This document shows positions 39,294 through 59,047 of a DNA stretch of 64,000 nucleotides, piece by piece; position 1 is the first letter of the stretch, and each line of letters opens with the position of its first letter. Origin of the DNA: Fimbriimonas ginsengisoli. Lineage in GTDB: Bacteria > Armatimonadota > Fimbriimonadia > Fimbriimonadales > Fimbriimonadaceae. Location: NCBI GenBank assembly GCA_016179045.1, contig JACOSL010000037.1, forward strand, positions 1 through 64,000, written 5' to 3'. The notes below the pieces were generated by a model. It worked only from the letters and a program-made list of their open reading frames with translations. It was not told where the DNA came from and did no database searches. The translations under genes were made by a program, and so were the position numbers.

Positions 39294-39487
39294 ATGGTGT
39301 CCTTGGGCGGTCTCGGTCCCTTGAATGACGCGATGCGACCTCGACTTTCAGACGTTCTACGGTGAGTCGATCCGGGGCGTTCTTTGGAATCTACCGATCA
39401 CGCGGGCCGCGCGGGCCACAAGTCGACCCCCGTCGACGGTCGCTCGTCACTCTCGCCTCTCTCCACGCTCGCCGCCTTGGTCTGGCA

Positions 39488-39648
39488 TCTTCCACTTGCC
39501 GTGCAGGGGGAAGACGCCGAAGGCTTGCCGAGGCGAGAAGGGGGTGCCTTCTCTCTCGCGCCAAGTTGAGTGGAAGCCTCCACCCTGATCGCCCCGATGG
39601 GAATCGGGACTCGCCGCCCTCCCCCGCACCGCAGGGAAGGGTTCCCGG
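39488..39648 (-). repeat. Family B intergenic repeat, copy 3
   Basis: Same blocks and orientation as 34745-34903: CTTGCCGTGCAGGGGGAAG, GCCTCCACCCTGATCGCCCC, ATGGGAATCGGGACTCGC, CCCTCCCCCGCACCGCAGGG. The gene-free stretch 39294-39746 also holds short ACTAGTCGCT-like repeats at 39684-39750 and no gene that can be supported. Confidence 0.7.
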
Positions 39649-39746
39649 ACTTGCCGAGGACGGCAAGGGCTTAGCCTCATGCCTAGTCACTACCGGCTAG
39701 TCGCTCCCTCCCCCCGTCACTCGTCGCTCGTTACTAGTCGCTGGCG

Positions 39747-40174: not shown

Positions 40175-40369
40175 ATGGCCACCGAGAAGCACCCGTGGGG
40201 CGATCAAGACGAGCAAGGCGTCGACCTTGGGCGCCTGCGCTTCAACCTGCGGCTCACCGACGAGCAAAAGCTTCAGCAGCATCAACGGGCCGCCCGATTT
40301 GTATTGGAGTGCATGATTGCCGCCGACCGTGCCGGAATTCGTAGACCTGCTGAAGGCCCTCAACGCTGA
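40175..40369 (+). CDS. Small helical protein, nucleotidyltransferase partner (module 1)
   Basis: 64 residues. After a polar start comes DLGRLRFNLRLTDEQKLQQ and HQRAARFVLECMIAAD, two amphipathic helices resembling the small proteins that often precede AbiEii/DUF6036-like nucleotidyltransferases. It overlaps the start of the nucleotidyltransferase gene by 53 bases, so the pair is tightly coupled. An antitoxin-like or substrate-selecting role is possible but unproven. Confidence 0.6.
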   Translation: MATEKHPWGDQDEQGVDLGRLRFNLRLTDEQKLQQHQRAARFVLECMIAADRAGIRRPAEGPQR

Positions 40370-40808
40370 AGAAATTCGCTATGTGGTCGTCGGTGGCCTG
40401 GCGATGGTGCTTCACGGCTCAAGCTATGTGACTTTCGATTTCGACTTCGCCGTGTCGTCCGATTCGGCTGATTCGCAAGCCTTGGTCCGCGCCCTTGCCC
40501 CGTTTCGGCCCTTTCCGCCGCAATTCGGATCGGCCAAGCACTTCGTGTGGGACGCGAGGAGCCTCGTCGGGGCGGTGGTCGAACTGTCGACTAGCGCTGG
40601 GCATATCGATATCCTTCGCGTCCAACCTGGGGTGGATTCCTTCGATGGCCTGTGGACGAGGTCGGAACTTCGGTCCATCGGCGACCTGCCGGTTCGGGTC
40701 GCCTCGCTGGACGATTTGATCGCGATGAAGGAGGCTGCTGGAAGACCGAAGGATCTCGATCACCTTCGCCAGCTGCGCGCCCTGAAGGCGATCCGGGATT
40801 CCGCGTAA
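40317..40808 (+). CDS. Nucleotidyltransferase, AbiEii/DUF6036-like (module 1)
   Basis: 163 residues with the pol-beta nucleotidyltransferase core: VVVGGLAMVLHGSS (Gly26-Gly27), FDFDFAV (Asp41 and Asp43 as metal ligands) and a third Asp in GHIDILRV. The C-terminus SLDDLIAMKEAAGRPKDLDHLRQL is the family tail. Start TTG 40317 has GGAG seven bases upstream. Such enzymes act in toxin-antitoxin or abortive infection systems or as RNA/protein AMPylators. All catalytic residues are intact. Confidence 0.85.
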   Translation: MPPTVPEFVDLLKALNAEEIRYVVVGGLAMVLHGSSYVTFDFDFAVSSDSADSQALVRALAPFRPFPPQFGSAKHFVWDARSLVGAVVELSTSAGHIDILRVQPGVDSFDGLWTRSELRSIGDLPVRVASLDDLIAMKEAAGRPKDLDHLRQLRALKAIRDSA

Positions 40809-42329: not shown

Positions 42330-42446
42330 CAGCTTCCGTAGTCTACTCCTCGAGTTGAGCGGGACATGCCTCCTCTCCTTGACCTACTTGCATAAACGCC
42401 GTCACCCGCACCTCTACGCCGCCTCCAAATCGAGTACGCTGAGCCC

Positions 42447-42596
42447 GTGAAGCGTCCTTCGAAGAAAGACATCGCGGCCGCCGTGGACAAGCTGAAGGAC
42501 AAATCCGCCGGCTCGTTCAGCGCGCGCGAGCCGAACGTGGGCAAGCTCTCGTCCAAGAAGAGTAGCCAGCGAATCCGGAAGAAGCAAGGAGTGTAA
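42447..42596 (+). CDS. Small basic protein (49 residues)
   Basis: Starts GTG, VKRPSKKDIAAAVDKLKDKS, and ends in a run of Lys/Arg/Ser (SSKKSSQRIRKKQG). Very basic, probably nucleic-acid binding or structural. The next small gene begins seven bases later on the same strand. The frame and sharp base-composition change against the repeats that follow suggest it is real. Confidence 0.5.
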   Translation: MKRPSKKDIAAAVDKLKDKSAGSFSAREPNVGKLSSKKSSQRIRKKQGV

Positions 42597-42602
42597 GGCG
42601 TC

Positions 42603-42734
42603 ATGGGCGACAAGAAGCCAAAGAAGAAATCCTCGGGCAGCAGCGACGCGCACAAGGCGAAGCTCATGAAGAGCCAGGCCGAGCGGCCGCCCGCCCCGCC
42701 GAGAGAGCGAGAGAAGGGGCGCGACAAGAGATAA
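42603..42734 (+). CDS. Small basic protein (43 residues)
   Basis: ATG 42603 follows the upstream stop by six bases and has AAGGAG (42586-42591) upstream. The product is Lys/Arg-rich (GDKKPKKKSSGSSDAHKAK, then PPAPPREREKGRDKR) and predicted disordered. Function unknown. It ends at the edge of the repeat island. Confidence 0.5.
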   Translation: MGDKKPKKKSSGSSDAHKAKLMKSQAERPPAPPREREKGRDKR

Positions 42735-42756
42735 CGAGGCGGGAGCCTCCGGATGT

Positions 42757-42926
42757 CCTCCCCTTGAGGCAGGGGGAGGAAGCGTGAGCGGCATGTCCCG
42801 CCGAAGCTCCGGCCTAGGCCGAAGCGAACGCAGGTGGAGGTTCGTCGGCCTGCGCGTTGAACCGAGCACCTCCATCCGGTCTCAGTAAGCCTTCGACCGA
42901 CTTCCCCCTGCACGCAAGGGGAAGAT
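42757..42926 (+). repeat. Family B repeat, variant copy 4
   Basis: Carries CTCCCCTTGAGGCAGGGGGAGG, then GGTGGAGG, CACCTCCATCCGGTCTCAG, AGCCTTCGACCGACTTCCCC and GCAAGGGGAAG. The first half differs from the other B copies. Confidence 0.65.
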
Positions 42927-42951
42927 GCGGATCTGAGCCGCGAGTTCCGCA

Positions 42952-43140
42952 AACCCTTCCCTGCGGTGCGGGGGAGGGCAGTGAGTCCCGATTCCGATCG
43001 GGGCGAACAGGGTGGAGGCCTCCACCCACCTGGGGGGGCGGAACGCCCAAGTTCCGCGTCGCACCCAATCGCACCTCCATCCGGTCTCAGCGAGCCTTCG
43101 ACCGACTTCCCCCTGCAAGCAAGGGGAAGATGCCCGGACC
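42952..43140 (+). repeat. Family B repeat, copy 5
   Basis: CCCTTCCCTGCGGTGCGGGG, GTGAGTCCCGATTCC, TCGGGGCGAACAGGGTGGAG, CACCTCCATCCGGTCTCAG and CTTCCCCCTGCAAGCAAGGG in order. First element of the tandem composite. Confidence 0.78.
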
Positions 43141-43191
43141 AAGTCCGCCAGTTCGACCATCGTTGACGCAATATGTCCACCGGTCAAGCCC

Positions 43192-43371: not shown

Positions 43372-43458
43372 TTCGGTGACGATGGGGTAACAGAGCGCGA
43401 GACTCGCGAGCCACCGTCCTGAGCTAAAGGGGCCCTTACCGGATCGGCAATTCCGGGA

Positions 43459-43622
43459 ACCCCTTCCCTGCGGTGCGGGGGAGGGCGGTGAAGTTCCGAT
43501 TCCCATCGGGGCGAGCAGGGTGGAGGCTTCCACTCGTCTTGGCCCGTGAGCGAAAGCACCCCCTTCTCGCCTCGGCAAGCCTTCGGCGTCTTCCCCCTGC
43601 AAGCAAGGGGAAGTTGCCCGGG
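43459..43622 (+). repeat. Family B repeat, copy 6
   Basis: Same start as copy 5; the middle differs (GGCTTCCACTCGTCTTGGCC) and matches the copy at 39488-39648 more closely (CCCCTTCTCGCCTCGGCAAG). Second B of the tandem composite. Confidence 0.78.
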
Positions 43623-43675
43623 CTAAAGCCGCCAACTCGACCATCGTTGACGCAGAATGTCCAACGGTCAAGCCC

Positions 43676-43829
43676 CTCCGCCTTGCGGCGGAGTGCCACC
43701 CCCTGCTTCGCTCCGCTCACCGACCCCCGCCCCGGAAGGGCAGGGGTGGGGATAATTCTCTCTGGATCGCTCGCGCCCTCCGGGCGACTCGCTCACCTTT
43801 TCCTTCTCGGGACGCCATCCTTGGCGTCC
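43676..43829 (+). repeat. Family A repeat, copy 4
   Basis: CTCCGCCTTGCGGCGGAG, CCCCCGCCCCGGAAGGGCAGG, CGCTCGCGCCCTCCGGGCG, CTCGCTCACC and GGGACGCCATCCTTGGCGTC. The linker TCGACCATCGTTGACGCAGA precedes it, as before copy 3. Confidence 0.78.
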
Positions 43830-43926
43830 CCTCTGCGAGCAACGGGTTATCACTTGCGGGCGACGCGTGACGAGCCAGTCGTCATGCGGGCCCAACGCGG
43901 CTCATCCCGGCTCGGCATTTTCCGGG

Positions 43927-44090
43927 AACCCTTCCCTGCGGTGCGGGGGAGGGGAGTGAGTCCCGATTCCTATCGGGGCGAGCAGGGTGGAGGCTGGCGA
44001 GAGCGAGCGTCGAAGCGCCGTCACCCCCTTCTCGCCTCGGCATGCCTTCGGCGTCTTCCCCCTGCAAGCAAGGGGAAGGTGCCCGGACCG
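43927..44090 (+). repeat. Family B repeat, copy 7
   Basis: CCCTTCCCTGCGGTGCGGGG through CTTCCCCCTGCAAGCAAGGG, ending in GTGCCCGGACC. It is the third B in the array and is not followed by an A unit. The stretch 42735-44191 has no supportable gene; apparent long frames there are the repeats read in six frames. Confidence 0.78.
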
Positions 44091-44191
44091 GCACCGGAGA
44101 AACACCCATGCCACGTCGCCCAAAGCCATGCAAAGCCATGCACCCCCACCGCAGAGCCATTGCAAAGCGTTGGGTCAAACCTCCGTCGCGG

Positions 44192-53580: not shown

Positions 53581-54479
53581 TTTTCTGAGGTACTCCGCTT
53601 GCGAAAGCAGTTGCGCGCGGTCGGCAGGTCATGGTCGGCAAGGAGGGCCGCCGCCGCCAACCCGATCAAGGCGACGTTGAGCGTCACGAGGTTGAACGGC
53701 TCGATGAAAAGTCGGGGCGAGTTGAGCAGGGCCCCGACCGTCAAGAGTGCCAGCACGGCTATCTGAAGCGTCAAGAGCCCCCGGGCACGCCAAAGGACCA
53801 GGAACAGAAGCCCATAGATAATCTCCGACCATCCGACGACCCCTACCCAGGCGGCAGCCGTGAGCCAAGGGAGGTGCGCCCGGTTGAGAGTGTCTAGCTC
53901 GCCCGTCCCTGGAAACAGCAGCTTAGGCACAATGCCCTGGTACACCCAGACAAAGGCAAGCGCCAAACGGCTGATCATGTGGATCGCTGCGCGCTGCCGA
54001 GCAACCTCTGGCGGAAGGTCCTTCTCCACCCACAACCGCATAGTGTCAAAGCTCCAAGCGGTCGCCCAGCCGATCAGCGGGCGGAAGGCGACTCGGTCGA
54101 ATAGGCGACCCAGAATCCCGAAACGAGTCTGGTAGTCGTAGCCCGTGGCGAATCGAACGCGACCTGGAAGCTGCTTGTACTGCCAGTAGCCGGAACCCTC
54201 GAGGATCAACGACCTCGGGTCGTCCGACCAAAACTTGAGCGCCGAGGTCGAAATCCCTAGCTTGTCTCGCTGGGCGACGCTCTCGCCCTTGCCCTTAACC
54301 TCCAGTCCGAACCCAAGGCGGGTGGAATACAGGAACTGCTGCGGCTCGCCATCGGTTCTGGGGAGATATTCGATGCGGTTGAATCGCAAGTCCCAACGCT
54401 CGTGCAACGCTGGCGTTTGCGTCACCTCCCAGACCCTATCGACGTCAGCCGCGACATCGATCTCCACGTAGATCGACAA
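53577..54479 (-). CDS. SRPBCC domain plus DoxX-like membrane protein
   Basis: 300 residues. The first 160 (IYVEIDVAADVDRVWEVTQTP, FNRIEYLPRTDGEPQQFLY) form a polyketide-cyclase/SRPBCC-type lipid-binding domain. The rest has four membrane helices (LTAAAWVGVVGWSEIIYGLLF, LLTLQIAVLALLTVGALL) of the DoxX_3 type. Paired with DUF4166 by a four-base overlap, a recurrent partnership. Function unknown. Confidence 0.82.
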   Translation of the reverse strand: MSIYVEIDVAADVDRVWEVTQTPALHERWDLRFNRIEYLPRTDGEPQQFLYSTRLGFGLEVKGKGESVAQRDKLGISTSALKFWSDDPRSLILEGSGYWQYKQLPGRVRFATGYDYQTRFGILGRLFDRVAFRPLIGWATAWSFDTMRLWVEKDLPPEVARQRAAIHMISRLALAFVWVYQGIVPKLLFPGTGELDTLNRAHLPWLTAAAWVGVVGWSEIIYGLLFLVLWRARGLLTLQIAVLALLTVGALLNSPRLFIEPFNLVTLNVALIGLAAAALLADHDLPTARNCFRKRSTSEN

Positions 54480-54551
54480 GCTACGGCCACATCTTATCCC
54501 GATTCGTTCGCGGCTTTAGGGGGCCACCAGCGGCGGCGGGGCGCAACGCCC

Positions 54552-54557
54552 TAAAAT
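54552..54557 (+). promoter_or_regulatory. Putative -10 of leaderless cysK
   Basis: TAAAAT lies eight bases before the GTG at 54566. Confidence 0.4.
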
Positions 54558-54565
54558 GGATCGCG

Positions 54566-55486
54566 GTGATCTACAAAGACGCGCCTGCAACCATCGGACG
54601 GACGCCCCTCGTCGAGCTGGGACGGTTGGCGAAGGGCCTGCCAGGCCGAGTCGTGGCGAAGCTGGAGATGCGCAACCCGTGCGGCAGTGTTAAAGACCGT
54701 CTGGGACTCGCCCTGATCGAGGACGCCGAACGATCTGGGCGGCTACGGCCTGGAATGACTCTGATCGAGCCCACGGGCGGCAATACCGGCGTCGGGCTAG
54801 CCTTCGTCGCTGCCGTCCGCGGATACCGGCTGATCCTGACCATGCCGGAGACGATGTCGCGCGAGCGCATCGCCCTGCTTCGCCATCTTGGGGCCGAAGT
54901 GGTGCTAACGCCGGGCATTCTCATGGTCGACGCGGTGGCAAAGGCCAAGCAGCTCGTGGCGGAAACCCCGGGCGCGCTGATGCTCGACCAATTCGAGAAC
55001 CCCGCCAACCCCGAGCTTCATCGCCGCACCACCGCGCTCGAGATTTGGGAGGATAGCGAAGGAGCGGTCGACGTGTTCGTCGCCGGCGTGGGCACCGGGG
55101 GCACGATCACGGGAGTGGGCGAGGTTCTCAAGCAGCGCAAACCGGGGGTTCGGATCGTGGCGGTCGAGCCTTCGGGGGCGGCGGTTCTGTCGGGCGGGCA
55201 AGCGGGAAGCCACAAGATGCCCGGGATCGGCGCCGGCTTCGTCCCGAAGGTTCTCAACCGGGCGATCATCGACGAAGTGATCGCGGTGAGCGATGAAGAG
55301 GCCTTCGATTGCGCAAGGCGGCTGGCGCGAACGGAGGGCATCGTGGCGGGCGTTTCGTCGGGAGCGGCGCTCCATGCCGCGCTTGCCATCGCGGCGCGGC
55401 CGGAATCAGCGGGCAAGCTCATCGTAGTCCTGCTTGCCGATACGGGCGAGCGCTACATCACGACGGAGCTGTTCGCGTGCGCCTGA
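54566..55486 (+). CDS. cysK: Cysteine synthase
   Basis: 306 residues of the fold-II PLP family. PLP lysine K43 in CGSVKDR; the phosphate loop GTGGTITG and the substrate loop EPTGGNTGVGLAF are intact, and GIGAGFVPKVLNRAIIDEV fits O-acetylserine sulfhydrylase. It makes cysteine from O-acetylserine and sulfide. Start is GTG 54566. Confidence 0.96.
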   Translation: MIYKDAPATIGRTPLVELGRLAKGLPGRVVAKLEMRNPCGSVKDRLGLALIEDAERSGRLRPGMTLIEPTGGNTGVGLAFVAAVRGYRLILTMPETMSRERIALLRHLGAEVVLTPGILMVDAVAKAKQLVAETPGALMLDQFENPANPELHRRTTALEIWEDSEGAVDVFVAGVGTGGTITGVGEVLKQRKPGVRIVAVEPSGAAVLSGGQAGSHKMPGIGAGFVPKVLNRAIIDEVIAVSDEEAFDCARRLARTEGIVAGVSSGAALHAALAIAARPESAGKLIVVLLADTGERYITTELFACA

Positions 55487-55539
55487 GCCTAGGCATTCGG
55501 CCCCACCGCCCTCGGCGCTTCTGCCGTAACCTGGCAGGC

Positions 55540-56009
55540 ATGACTAGGCTCCTTGCTCTCCCAATCCTGGCTCTTGTCCTCAGTTCAGCCGTCCTTGCTC
55601 AAAGCCAGGTATCCGACGCGGACGCGGCAGCGATCAAGGCAACCGCGTTGGACTACATCGAAGGCTATTATGACGGCGAGGCCCCCGCATGGAGCGGGCG
55701 CTGCACCCCGACCTGGCCAAGCGCATCGTGGTGGTAAACCCAGCCAACGGCCGCAATCGCCTGGATCACATGAGCGCGATGGCGCTCGTGCAGGGCACTC
55801 GCCGCATGAGCGCCCATCCCGTTCCCAAGGACAAGCAGCAGAAGGACGTCATCATCCTCGATGTGTTCGGCAACGCGGCTTGCGTCAAGATCGTCGCGAA
55901 CACGTGGATCGACTACCTGCATGAGGCCAAGTTCGAGGGCCACTGGGTGATCGTGAACGTGCTTTGGGAACTCAAGCCGTCTCCGCCCAAGCCAGCGGCA
56001 ACGCATTGA
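55540..56009 (+). pseudogene. NTF2-like secreted protein, frameshifted at a C-run
   Basis: ATG 55540 opens a signal peptide (RLLALPILALVLSSAVLAQ) and ATALDYIEGYYDGEA. The rest of the SnoaL/NTF2-like fold (MERALHPDLAKRIVVVN, MSAMALVQGTRR, VIILDVFGNAACVKIVANTW) continues in another frame from 55689 to the stop at 56009. The switch is at CCCCC (55682-55686); one more C would restore a single reading frame. Either a sequencing slip or a real homopolymer mutation. Confidence 0.8.
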
Positions 56010-56025
56010 CATGCTAGAGTGAGGT

Positions 56026-56256
56026 GTGGATGCGAAGCTCGTGCGTCAGTGGAAGGCCGGGTTCGAGGAAGTCAATCGGTTTACATTGGAAGAAGCGCGG
56101 GCTAGAACTCCCGCCGAGCGGCTCGCCCTGCTTCAAAGCCATCTTCGCCAGCTGGGCGAGCTTGGCCTCTTGCGTACAAAGGGGGAAGACTTGGAGTTCC
56201 ATATAAGGTGGCAGTCGGTCCGTGAGCGGTTCCTCTCAAAAAATCCCGCAGCTTGA
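56026..56256 (+). CDS. Small helical protein, nucleotidyltransferase partner (module 2)
   Basis: 76 residues: LVRQWKAGFEEVNRFTLEEARARTPAERLALLQ, all helical and charged, then HIRWQSVRERFLSK. Similar in size and position, though not clearly homologous, to the partner at 40175. It overlaps the nucleotidyltransferase gene by 35 bases. Start GTG 56026. Confidence 0.65.
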   Translation: MDAKLVRQWKAGFEEVNRFTLEEARARTPAERLALLQSHLRQLGELGLLRTKGEDLEFHIRWQSVRERFLSKNPAA

Positions 56257-56830
56257 AGGGACGCTCGCGCGGCTGCACGCTTCACTCACCGGTCTGGGCC
56301 TCCCCTATGCGGTGATCGGCGGGATCGCAGTGATACTGCGAGGATACGACCGGTCCACGCAGGACCTCGATGCGGTGGTCTGGGGCGCCGATGGTCGCCT
56401 GCCCGAACTCGTCGCCGAACTGGGCAAAAACGGATTGCACCTGCGACGGGACGACGGGGTCGAGTTCGCCAAGCGGAATCGAATCCTGCTTTTGAAGAGT
56501 CCGGACGGGACGCAAGCCGACCTTTCGCTCGGGGCGCTTCCCTTTGAACATGAGTTGATCCGGCGGGCGACCTTGGAGTTGCTCGGCAAGTCGTTGTCGG
56601 TGCCGATAGCCACCGTTGAGGACTTGCTCATCATGAAGTTCATCGCCTCCCGCGATCGGGACCTGGACGACATACGCCGGCTCATGGACCTTCACCCGGA
56701 GCTCGATCGAAAACGAATCGCCCGTATCGTGCGGGAGTACGCCAAAGCGCTGAACCAGCCTGAATTGATCGGCAACGTGCGCGCCCTGCTTGGCACAAAG
56801 CGCCAGCGGTCTCACCCGGTCGCCACGTAG
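56222..56830 (+). CDS. Nucleotidyltransferase, AbiEii/DUF6036-like (module 2)
   Basis: 202 residues with the catalytic set AVIGGIAVILRGYDRSTQDLD (Gly33-Gly34, Asp48, Asp50) and the third Asp in TQADLSLGAL. The tail TVEDLLIMKFIASRDRDLDDI is the same element as in module 1. Nucleotide-transfer chemistry is intact; target unknown. Confidence 0.87.
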   Translation: MSGSSQKIPQLEGTLARLHASLTGLGLPYAVIGGIAVILRGYDRSTQDLDAVVWGADGRLPELVAELGKNGLHLRRDDGVEFAKRNRILLLKSPDGTQADLSLGALPFEHELIRRATLELLGKSLSVPIATVEDLLIMKFIASRDRDLDDIRRLMDLHPELDRKRIARIVREYAKALNQPELIGNVRALLGTKRQRSHPVAT

Positions 56831-56838
56831 AACTTGAT

Positions 56839-57789
56839 GTGAGGATCGTCATCCCCGGCGGGACGGGGCATGTGGGCCGGATGCTCCGACCGCAATTCGC
56901 GGCCGCTCGCCACGACGTGGTCGTGCTCTCCCGCAACCCGCAGGGCTCGGACGAAATCCAATGGGACGGCAAGACCGTCGGCCCCTGGGCAGATGCCTTC
57001 GAGGGCGTGGACGCGGTGATCAACCTAGCAGGCCGGTCGGTCAACTGTCGCTACACCGAGGCGAACTTGCGCGAGATGATGGATTCACGAGTCGTGTCGA
57101 CCCGGGTCGTCGGGCAGGCGATCTCCGGCTGCAAGCGTCCGCCGCGGGTATGGCTTCAGGCGAGCACGGCCACGATCTACGCGCACCGGTTCGATGCGGC
57201 CAACGATGAGGCGACCGGCATCCTCGGCGGAAATGAAACCGGTTCCGCCCAAAAGTGGAACCACAGCACGGATATCGCGAAGGCATGGGAACGCGAGCAG
57301 GATCGGGCCGACACCCCCAATACCCGCAAGGTGGCGATGCGCACCGCTATCGCGATGGGGGTCGTGCGAGGTAGCGCGTTCGACCTCATGGCGGGGCTCG
57401 CCCAGCGCGGCCTCGGCGGCGCGGTCGCGGGAGGCAAGCAGTTCGTGTCCTGGGTACATGAAACCGACCTAGCCCGGGCAATTCTGTTCCTGATCGACCA
57501 CAGCGCTCTCGCCGGCCATGTGAATATCGCCTCGCCCAACCCACTGCCCAACCGGGAGTTCGCCCGCGCCTTGCGCCAAGCGGTCGGGGCGAAGGCTGGC
57601 CTGCCCGCCACCCGATGGATGCTCGAACTCGCGGCCGTTTTCATGAAGACCGAGGGGGAACTCATGCTCAAGAGCAGGCGGGTGGTGCCCACAAGACTCC
57701 TGACCGCCGGATTCCGGTTCGAATATCCGGAATGGCCTGGTGCATCGGCGGAGCTCGCTTTGCGATGGCGGGCGATGCTTCGCCGCTAG
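56839..57789 (+). CDS. TIGR01777 family NAD-dependent epimerase-like protein
   Basis: 316 residues. RIVIPGGTGHVGRML is the NAD(P)-binding loop, VINLAGRSVNCRYTE and SDIAKAWEREQD the SDR39U1/YfcH signature, VSWVHETDLARAI the C-terminal region, and RVVPTRLLTAGFRFEYP the DUF1731 tail. Role unknown; ATG/GTG 56839 lies eight bases after the nucleotidyltransferase stop. Confidence 0.92.
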   Translation: MRIVIPGGTGHVGRMLRPQFAAARHDVVVLSRNPQGSDEIQWDGKTVGPWADAFEGVDAVINLAGRSVNCRYTEANLREMMDSRVVSTRVVGQAISGCKRPPRVWLQASTATIYAHRFDAANDEATGILGGNETGSAQKWNHSTDIAKAWEREQDRADTPNTRKVAMRTAIAMGVVRGSAFDLMAGLAQRGLGGAVAGGKQFVSWVHETDLARAILFLIDHSALAGHVNIASPNPLPNREFARALRQAVGAKAGLPATRWMLELAAVFMKTEGELMLKSRRVVPTRLLTAGFRFEYPEWPGASAELALRWRAMLRR

Positions 57790-57801
57790 TGCGCGACCGG
57801 C

Positions 57802-58356
57802 TCAGTCCGCCGGTCGATCGAGTTCCGCCTCGATCTGCAGGTGAACCTCCTTGCCGACCGCGACGCCCCCAGTCTCCAAGATCTGGTTCCAGGTCACCCC
57901 GAAATCCTCGCGATTTATAACACCGGTCGCGCTCGCGCCGATCTTGTAGCCGCCCCAGGGGCTCGCCACCTCGTCGGTCAGCTCGGCGTTCAACACCACT
58001 TCGCGGGTCGCGCCGCGAATCGTTAGATCGCCTATCAATTCGTATTCCCCTGTGCCGGTCTGATTGATCTGCTTTGAGTGGAAGGCAATCGTCGGAAACC
58101 GCTCGACATCGAGAAAGTCCGGCGACTTCAGGTGGGCGTCGCGTTGCTCTTGGCCGGTTGCCAGCGTCGACGCGTCGAGCTCCACCGCGACCGACGCGGC
58201 CTCGGGCCGATCGACGTCCATCGAAACGGTCCCTGAAATCCCGGAGATCACGCCGTGAACTTTGGCGATCATCAAGTGCCGGACCCAGAAGCGGGCCGTC
58301 GAGTGCGCGGGGTCGAGGGTGTACGTTTTCGTCCGGGTGAGAGTCGTCTGAGTCAT
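57802..58356 (-). CDS. YceI family protein
   Basis: 184 residues: YTLDPAHSTARFWVRHLMI, VSMDVDRPEAASVAVELD and GYKIGASATGVINREDFGVTW define YceI, a lipocalin-like barrel that binds polyisoprenoids. No signal peptide is present, so this member stays in the cytoplasm. Divergent from the HxlR regulator, which probably controls it. Confidence 0.93.
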   Translation of the reverse strand: MTQTTLTRTKTYTLDPAHSTARFWVRHLMIAKVHGVISGISGTVSMDVDRPEAASVAVELDASTLATGQEQRDAHLKSPDFLDVERFPTIAFHSKQINQTGTGEYELIGDLTIRGATREVVLNAELTDEVASPWGGYKIGASATGVINREDFGVTWNQILETGGVAVGKEVHLQIEAELDRPAD

Positions 58357-58420
58357 ATCGTTCTCCTTTCGGCGCAGGCAATCCAGCCACGCGCTTTGCT
58401 TTCGTTTCCAGTTTGCTACA

Positions 58421-58430
58421 CTATATATAG
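58421..58430. promoter_or_regulatory. Palindrome in the YceI/HxlR intergenic region
   Basis: A perfect 10-bp palindrome CTATATATAG between the divergent yceI-like and hxlR-like genes, positioned to overlap a -10 element. A plausible HxlR operator. Confidence 0.4.
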
Positions 58431-58505
58431 CGCCACGGGTTCTGTTCTAGGAAACGAGACGACTCGCGGGGGCGTTCCCAGAAATTGGGTGTGAACGAAA
58501 AAAAG

Positions 58506-58856
58506 ATGAGCAGCGACTCGGAATCCGTGCCTGCCCTCGCCCGAGCGGTGGCGCTGTTGCAGGAGAAGTGGGCCCTTCTTGTAGTCGCGAGGCTCATGGA
58601 GGGCCCGAGCGGCTTCAACGAGCTGTCCCGCCGAGTCTGCGGGATATGCCCGACCATGCTATCGCAGCGCCTGAGCTTGCTGGAGGATGCGGGCCTAGTT
58701 TCGAAGACCATCCATTCAACCATGCCTCCGCGGACAAGCTACGAACTCACTGAGGCGGGCAAGGCTCTCAAGCCCGTGCTCGATGCCCTCGAAACCTGGG
58801 CGGCCGGTCATCTAGGTCCGAAGGCGGCCTGCCCAATACTCGACGGAAACAATTAG
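58506..58856 (+). CDS. HxlR family transcriptional regulator
   Basis: 116 residues: winged helix with ALLQEKWALLVVARLMEGP, FNELSRRVCGICPTMLSQRL and SLLEDAGLVSKTIHST, PRTSYELTEAGKALKPVLDAL. HxlR proteins sense redox or carbonyl stress, and Cys residues in the recognition-helix region (CGICP) are candidates. GTG 58491 or TTG 58485 are possible earlier starts. Confidence 0.93.
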   Translation: MSSDSESVPALARAVALLQEKWALLVVARLMEGPSGFNELSRRVCGICPTMLSQRLSLLEDAGLVSKTIHSTMPPRTSYELTEAGKALKPVLDALETWAAGHLGPKAACPILDGNN

Positions 58857-59047
58857 AACGCCCGGCCCTGCGCGGCCGAGACGCCTTCGCGGGGATTCAA
58901 GGTGTGGATAAGTGTTGGAAAAGTATTTCGATTTGTCGGCAATCCAGTCCGGGCTCCCCGAACTGCCGAACAGAGGTAAAAACCCCGCGCGTCTACCAGG
59001 TGTCGGCGGCGGCCACAGCGGCTCGCCGCCAGAGGAGGTCGGAAACC

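Follow-up and report, generated by a model that had tools for sequence, protein, structure and literature searches.

What is the role of a small open reading frame (ORF) that precedes and overlaps a nucleotidyltransferase (NTase) gene, and does its product select the target of the enzyme, as the original prediction held, or control the enzyme in some other way? We addressed this question for a locus in the genome of Fimbriimonas ginsengisoli, analysing a stretch of 64,000 nucleotides of contig JACOSL010000037.1 that is referred to below as the window. The predicted arrangement, a 76-residue ORF overlapping a transferase by 35 bases, was confirmed in its coordinates, and both ORFs are conserved:

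56026-56256, + strand: small partner ORF, 76 aa, GTG start, proposed antitoxin, partner type A (ORF list)
56222-56830, + strand: DUF6036 NTase ORF, 202 aa, GTG start, MenT1-like, proposed toxin (ORF list, PF19502)
56222-56256, + strand: 35-nt overlap of the 76-aa ORF and the NTase ORF (ORF coordinates)

The 35-nt overlap suggests that translation of the two ORFs is coupled. Upstream, the module is flanked by a putative lumazine-binding gene (PF12893, profile positions 25-115) and downstream by a gene for an NAD-dependent epimerase, which starts 8 nt past the NTase stop codon. The upstream gene (55540-56009) looks frameshifted, with a signal-like N-terminus extending to ~55690 and the lumazine-binding domain in another frame. 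No Rfam match was detected at 54000-59000, and a promoter and terminator scan found nothing. By analogy with the best-matching studied pair, and with a probability of about 70%, we consider the two genes to be a MenA1/MenT1-like toxin-antitoxin module in which the small protein would be the antitoxin.

In order to place the NTase within a family, the 202-aa protein was compared with Pfam profiles and with proteins of known structure. The NTase scored 39.9 bits against PF19502 (DUF6036), above the gathering cut-off of 23.6, and narrowly missed the cut-off for PF08843 (AbiEii; 22.2 against 22.5 bits). Likewise, all 24 members of our NTase profile A3 match DUF6036 at E 0.01 and 20 of the 24 match PF08843 at the same threshold; in 14 control genomes, DUF6036 matches were found in four, above the cut-off in two. 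In a single-sequence search, MenT1 was the only significant PDB match (E 2.7e-10), and a search with the NTase profile returned MenT1 at E 8.7e-23 and the fungal NTase-like protein 5uvd at 2.6e-8. A structure predicted from a three-row alignment (pLDDT 82.3, pTM 0.77) again ranked MenT1 first in Foldseek (E 2.0e-9). VIA-align superimposed this model on MenT1 (8an5_B) with a Z score of 18.6 and an rmsd of 2.6 over 175 aligned residues, and gave 18.5 for 8an4_A and 17.4 for the phosphorylated form 8rr5. Beyond MenT1, the Z scores were 13.2 for ANT(2'')-Ia, 12.4 for MenT3 (TglT) and 10.2 for LnuA.

The alignment with MenT1, in which MenT1 residue numbers equal the chain numbering plus one, locates the NTase motifs as follows:

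56318-56371, + strand: motifs I and II, G33 G34 ... R44-x-T46-x-D48-x-D50 (MenT1 alignment)
56621-56671, + strand: motif III (DLLIMK, residues 134-139, with K139) and motif IV (D147, D150) (MenT1 alignment)

T46, D48, D50, K139, D147 and D150 align with MenT1 T39, D41, D43, K137, D149 and D152, respectively. MenT1 toxicity is abolished by the substitutions D41A, K137A and D152A, and T39A leaves it in place (PMC10435456). The catalytic site of the window NTase is thus intact, with D48, K139 and D150 as well as the phospho-acceptor threonine, T46, all present. Conservation among 71 NTases is nearly complete at most of these positions: G33 and T46 are found in 71/71, D48 in 70/71, R44, D50, K139 and D150 in 69/71, and D147 in 63/71. 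Since the invariant Thr46 is also found in the five NTases that have no partner, its conservation alone is no proof of regulation by a partner. In the clade, two NTases that are full-length and have a partner carry a changed catalytic position (D48 to V in G187 and D100 to A in G046). DLLIMK and its counterpart DLIAMK in a second module of the window had been described as a shared C-terminal tail; the string is in fact internal motif III with the catalytic Lys139 and, because that lysine occurs in 69 of the 71 NTases, it ties no special bond between the two modules.

The lower-ranking fold matches to ANT(2'')-Ia and LnuA would allow an NTase that acts on a small molecule, as those enzymes do, with the partner serving as a stabiliser. 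This explanation is most improbable, because the MenT1 matches exceed these by 4 to 5 Z units, the NTase shares its RxTxDxD, K and D positions with MenT1, and NTases of this clade almost always have a partner.

The resemblance to the MenA1-MenT1 system (Rv0078B-Rv0078A; PDB 8AN5, 8AN4 and 8RR5) extends to the arrangement of the genes, with a small partner encoded upstream of an NTase that is similar to MenT1 in length and fold, and to the alignment of the catalytic residues and the phospho-acceptor Thr. MenA1 is a 68-aa protein consisting of a long and a short helix, with no apparent DNA-binding domain, that neutralises MenT1 (PMC10435456); it spans two MenT1 molecules and blocks both, and it induces phosphorylation of T39 by shifting the T39 loop toward the bound nucleotide (PMC10435456, PMC11375011). 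The same source lists 21 menA1 genes, 15 of which lie upstream of a menT-like ORF (PMC10435456). The window pair is unlike this system in that NTase identity is only 27-29%, the window partner has no detectable sequence similarity to MenA1, the window NTase scores as DUF6036, and a sister clade contains fused forms.

For the partner itself, NCBIfam and PADLOC gave no family match at E 1, and its one Pfam match (E 0.24) is a chance one; neither a helix-turn-helix nor any other recognised domain was found in Pfam, NCBIfam or PADLOC. The predicted model is all-helical and of low confidence (pLDDT 63.8), and a Foldseek search with this weak model returned two matches, the better at E 7.4, with no MenA1 among them. 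Searched against PDB chains up to E 10, the partner profiles gave no sequence match to MenA1. The residues that form the antitoxin pocket of MenT1 (L8, L120 and L123) correspond in the alignment to L15, L121 and L125 of the window NTase; in 24 relatives, position 121 is mostly hydrophobic and positions 15 and 125 are mixed, so that two of the three leucines are loosely conserved. Six close partners (15 pairs) differ by 0.469, 0.364 and 0.684 per codon at the first, second and third positions, mostly at position 3, in a protein-guided alignment that itself favours such an excess. Twenty-two members of the partner profile A1 and 12 members of A8 gave no Pfam match at E 0.01. Comparison of A1 with A8, which represent partner types A and B, gave 87.6% (E 3.5e-6 for one comparison).

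Because the anatomy of the window pair is that of MenA1/MenT1, we propose the same mechanism. The analysis itself establishes a conserved ORF pair, a predicted fold, an intact catalytic site, joint inheritance, NTase decay beside a retained partner and a patchy distribution, and from these we infer the toxicity, the antitoxin role, the binding mode, the RNA target and the autophosphorylation of the window pair. Overlapping translation, partner first, would supply the antitoxin together with the toxin. The small helical antitoxin, which has no recognised DNA-binding domain, would cover the active-site face of the NTase, and its loss would free the pol-beta-fold enzyme. The toxic act may be the addition of nucleotides to tRNA, a target taken from MenT1 for which we rate the chances as about even. 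More tentatively, and with the odds somewhat against it, the partner could push the Thr46 loop toward the bound NTP, so that the NTase phosphorylates itself and shuts off, again as in MenT1.

An NTase gene paired with a gene for a helical protein is also the layout of the type VII HEPN-MNT (HepT-MntA) systems, raising the possibility that the roles are reversed and that the small protein is a toxin which the NTase, as antitoxin, modifies. We regard this as very unlikely. Unlike HEPN proteins, the window partner has no HEPN match at E 1 and no RX4-6H string is common to the partners: differing strings occur in 17 of 26 and none in the remaining nine. Furthermore, partners without an NTase exist (in genomes G079 and G085), and the closest match of the NTase is a MenT-family toxin. 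AbiEi-AbiEii, a type IV system, likewise shares NTase motifs I-IV (PMC3985639), and differs in that the window NTase falls under the PF08843 cut-off and its 76-aa partner is not a winged-HTH AbiEi protein.

In single-protein searches of 201 genomes, including that of the window, 14 genomes had a match to the small ORF and 44 a match to the NTase, and the NTase profile A3 matched in 127 of 291 phylum genomes at E 1e-6. The original prediction would have been refuted by separation of partner and transferase in most genomes, which these searches do not show. Among the best 30 NTase loci of the 291 genomes, 26 have a separate small ORF upstream and four have a partner-like domain fused in front, so that none of these 30 lacks a partner. 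At the 26 unfused loci, the partner stop codon lies at -29 to +13 nt relative to the point where the NTase profile match begins. Viewed from the partner side, with the window partner as sole query, 10 of the 14 matches (own genome included) are directly upstream of an NTase match. The remaining four comprise G079 and G085, with no NTase-like ORF downstream on the same strand, a fragment in G001, and a match in G183 that sits within a 459-aa frame. The partner profile A1 gave 33 matches in 31 of 291 genomes, 26 of them directly upstream of an NTase, a count that is biased because 21 of the 33 are A1's own rows, chosen for NTase adjacency; the single-protein search is free of this bias. Of the 12 matches outside those rows, five adjoin an intact-looking NTase and one (G081:C102) a decayed one; G012 is remnant-like, G079 and G085 stand alone, G001 is the fragment, and two ORFs of G179 are of another kind. 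The latter (L153 and L078) resemble partners, are longer and contain a TPQERW motif, and the one at L153 overlaps a frame resembling a different NTase subfamily.

More distant NTases were represented by 41 loci (40 fetched, largely from among the highest entries of a longer list, plus a module at 40 kb in the window). Here, the upstream ORF fell into a liberal partner cluster (phmmer E below 0.01 in a set of about 100) at 35 loci, a lone candidate was found at one (L138), and five had none. Taken together, the 71 NTase loci comprise 60 clustered partners, two unclustered candidates (L109 and L138), four fusions and five loci without a partner. As a control, other ORFs in equivalent places formed only singletons or three pairs, and one spurious second ORF (L149) joined the cluster. 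A clade of four NTases (L131, L116, L124 and L141; support 98/90), one of them in the window genome (C43), has no small partner upstream and perhaps has another function. The pair is also encoded in a Nitrospirae record (L052).

The fate of damaged loci bears on what the partner does. A partner has survived beside a broken NTase in G026, where the NTase is truncated at 141 aa, and in G081:C102; in G084 and G163, the partner is likewise kept and the N-terminal part of the NTase is missing or out of frame. NTase pieces lie in two frames in G073, and a fused copy in G185 contains a stop; some of these cases could be artefacts of draft-genome assembly. G054 was dropped from the broken NTases, as stops are confined there to the first matched positions and the protein may merely start late. 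Partners that persist beside broken NTases, together with the lack of a partnerless intact NTase in the best 30 loci, fit a toxin-antitoxin pair. The distribution of the module is patchy. The flanking epimerase is present in 84 of 85 family genomes, and at 29 of 29 other epimerase loci neither a partner nor an NTase matched at E 1e-4 within up to 1.5 kb on each side; with the epimerase near-universal and no match at any of these loci, the module seems to be a sporadic guest. No close relatives of the pair were found in plasmids and phages at the limits used.

The two proteins are also inherited together. Distances among partners correlate with those among NTases (Mantel r of 0.825 over 26 pairs, 0.69 over 36 and 0.744 over 62), with none of 2000 permutations reaching the observed value for any pair set. 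A comparison of partner types with transferase clades, which had been proposed as a check, showed that types follow clades: 13 changes on the NTase tree (the least possible is nine) compared with a mean of 41.8 for shuffled types, and 0/200 shuffles did as well. Shared descent alone could explain both the distance correlation and the tree fit, which do not separate contact from descent. This agreement between partner types and clades would also suit a subunit that activates the NTase or gives it specificity by presenting it with a chosen RNA or protein. No support was found for the proposal that the partner selects the target, however, and the closest studied pair, MenA1/MenT1, uses its partner as an inhibitor (PMC10435456, PMC11375011). 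Partners that persist beside broken NTases, or alone, would have little reason to do so as mere subunits.

The fused proteins also speak for such a subunit, since a built-in accessory domain suits them better than a free antitoxin, and they keep that explanation alive. The four fused NTases, L103 (G129), L106 (G171), L108 (G191) and L110 (G153), form one clade (100/100) and carry a helical-looking N-terminal extension of 66-130 residues that resembles the separate 72-aa partner of G149 (L158), with 32-38% identity. A simple toxin-antitoxin pair does not readily accommodate an antitoxin that is permanently fused. Homology between the fused domain and the window partner is, however, not demonstrated: comparison of profile A1 with the fused domain scored only 7%, and the domain may be an analogue in the same place only. 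Moreover, the catalytic Lys is lost in two of the four fused copies (N in G171, E in G191), so part of the clade may be inactive. On balance, a specificity or activating subunit is quite unlikely, and we retain the toxin-antitoxin reading. The lysine losses and the changed catalytic positions in G187 and G046 count against that reading too, as do the missing MenA1 sequence match, the weak partner model, the loosely conserved pocket leucines and the five of 71 NTases without a partner.

The second module of the window has the same layout with a partner of a different type:

40175-40369, + strand: second-module partner, 64 aa, different partner type (ORF list, profile matches)
40317-40808, + strand: second-module NTase, 163 aa, DUF6036/DUF2204 (Pfam, A3 match, NTase comparison)

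The 64-aa partner represents a separate family that is matched in 34 of 291 genomes at E 0.01, and at seven of 11 loci of this type tblastn detected an NTase, or a piece of one, downstream. In the NTase of the 40-kb module, Tyr replaces the motif II Arg and His the motif IV Asp; the clade of this NTase (with L190-L192, L194 and L199) lacks the motif II Arg, which is otherwise nearly invariant. Homology of the two window partners is not demonstrated: they remain apart at 1e-4, join only at E below 0.01, and have a probability of 0.8% in profile comparison. The idea of two modules with a repeated design holds to the extent that both are real and the design recurs widely; the number two is an undercount, as this genome has six NTases with a superfamily match, five preceded by an ORF from the partner cluster and one, the C43 copy, not. 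Near the second module, ORF translations on both strands at ~39390-39700, 42330-43180 and 43440-44180 contain recurring phrases such as 'RPDRNRDSLPSPAPQGRV', suggestive of GC-rich repeats dispersed between the genes.

What is new here are the unnamed partner families and the fused clade. DUF6036 received no mention in the literature searched, with most subscription journals outside its scope, and nothing on the partner families appeared among the matches listed for MenAT, AbiE and HEPN-MNT work, as judged by titles and abstract openings. Autophosphorylation induced by MenA1 is described for the toxins of one pathogen (PMC10435456). A broader reading would make DUF6036 NTases and their fast-diverging helical partners a large, mostly unnamed toxin-antitoxin class with Thr self-phosphorylation as a common off-switch, in which the fused clade would be a self-restrained, single-chain toxin released by an outside trigger such as a phage protein. 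We think this unlikely, and lowered our estimate because two of the four fused copies have no catalytic Lys. A phage protein is the releasing trigger in CapRel. The modules point to a broader class that includes several partner families, with no Pfam match among the scanned members, and in which the generality of the Thr switch can be tested, and the fused clade offers a test case for how a toxin may coexist with an antitoxin-like domain in one chain.
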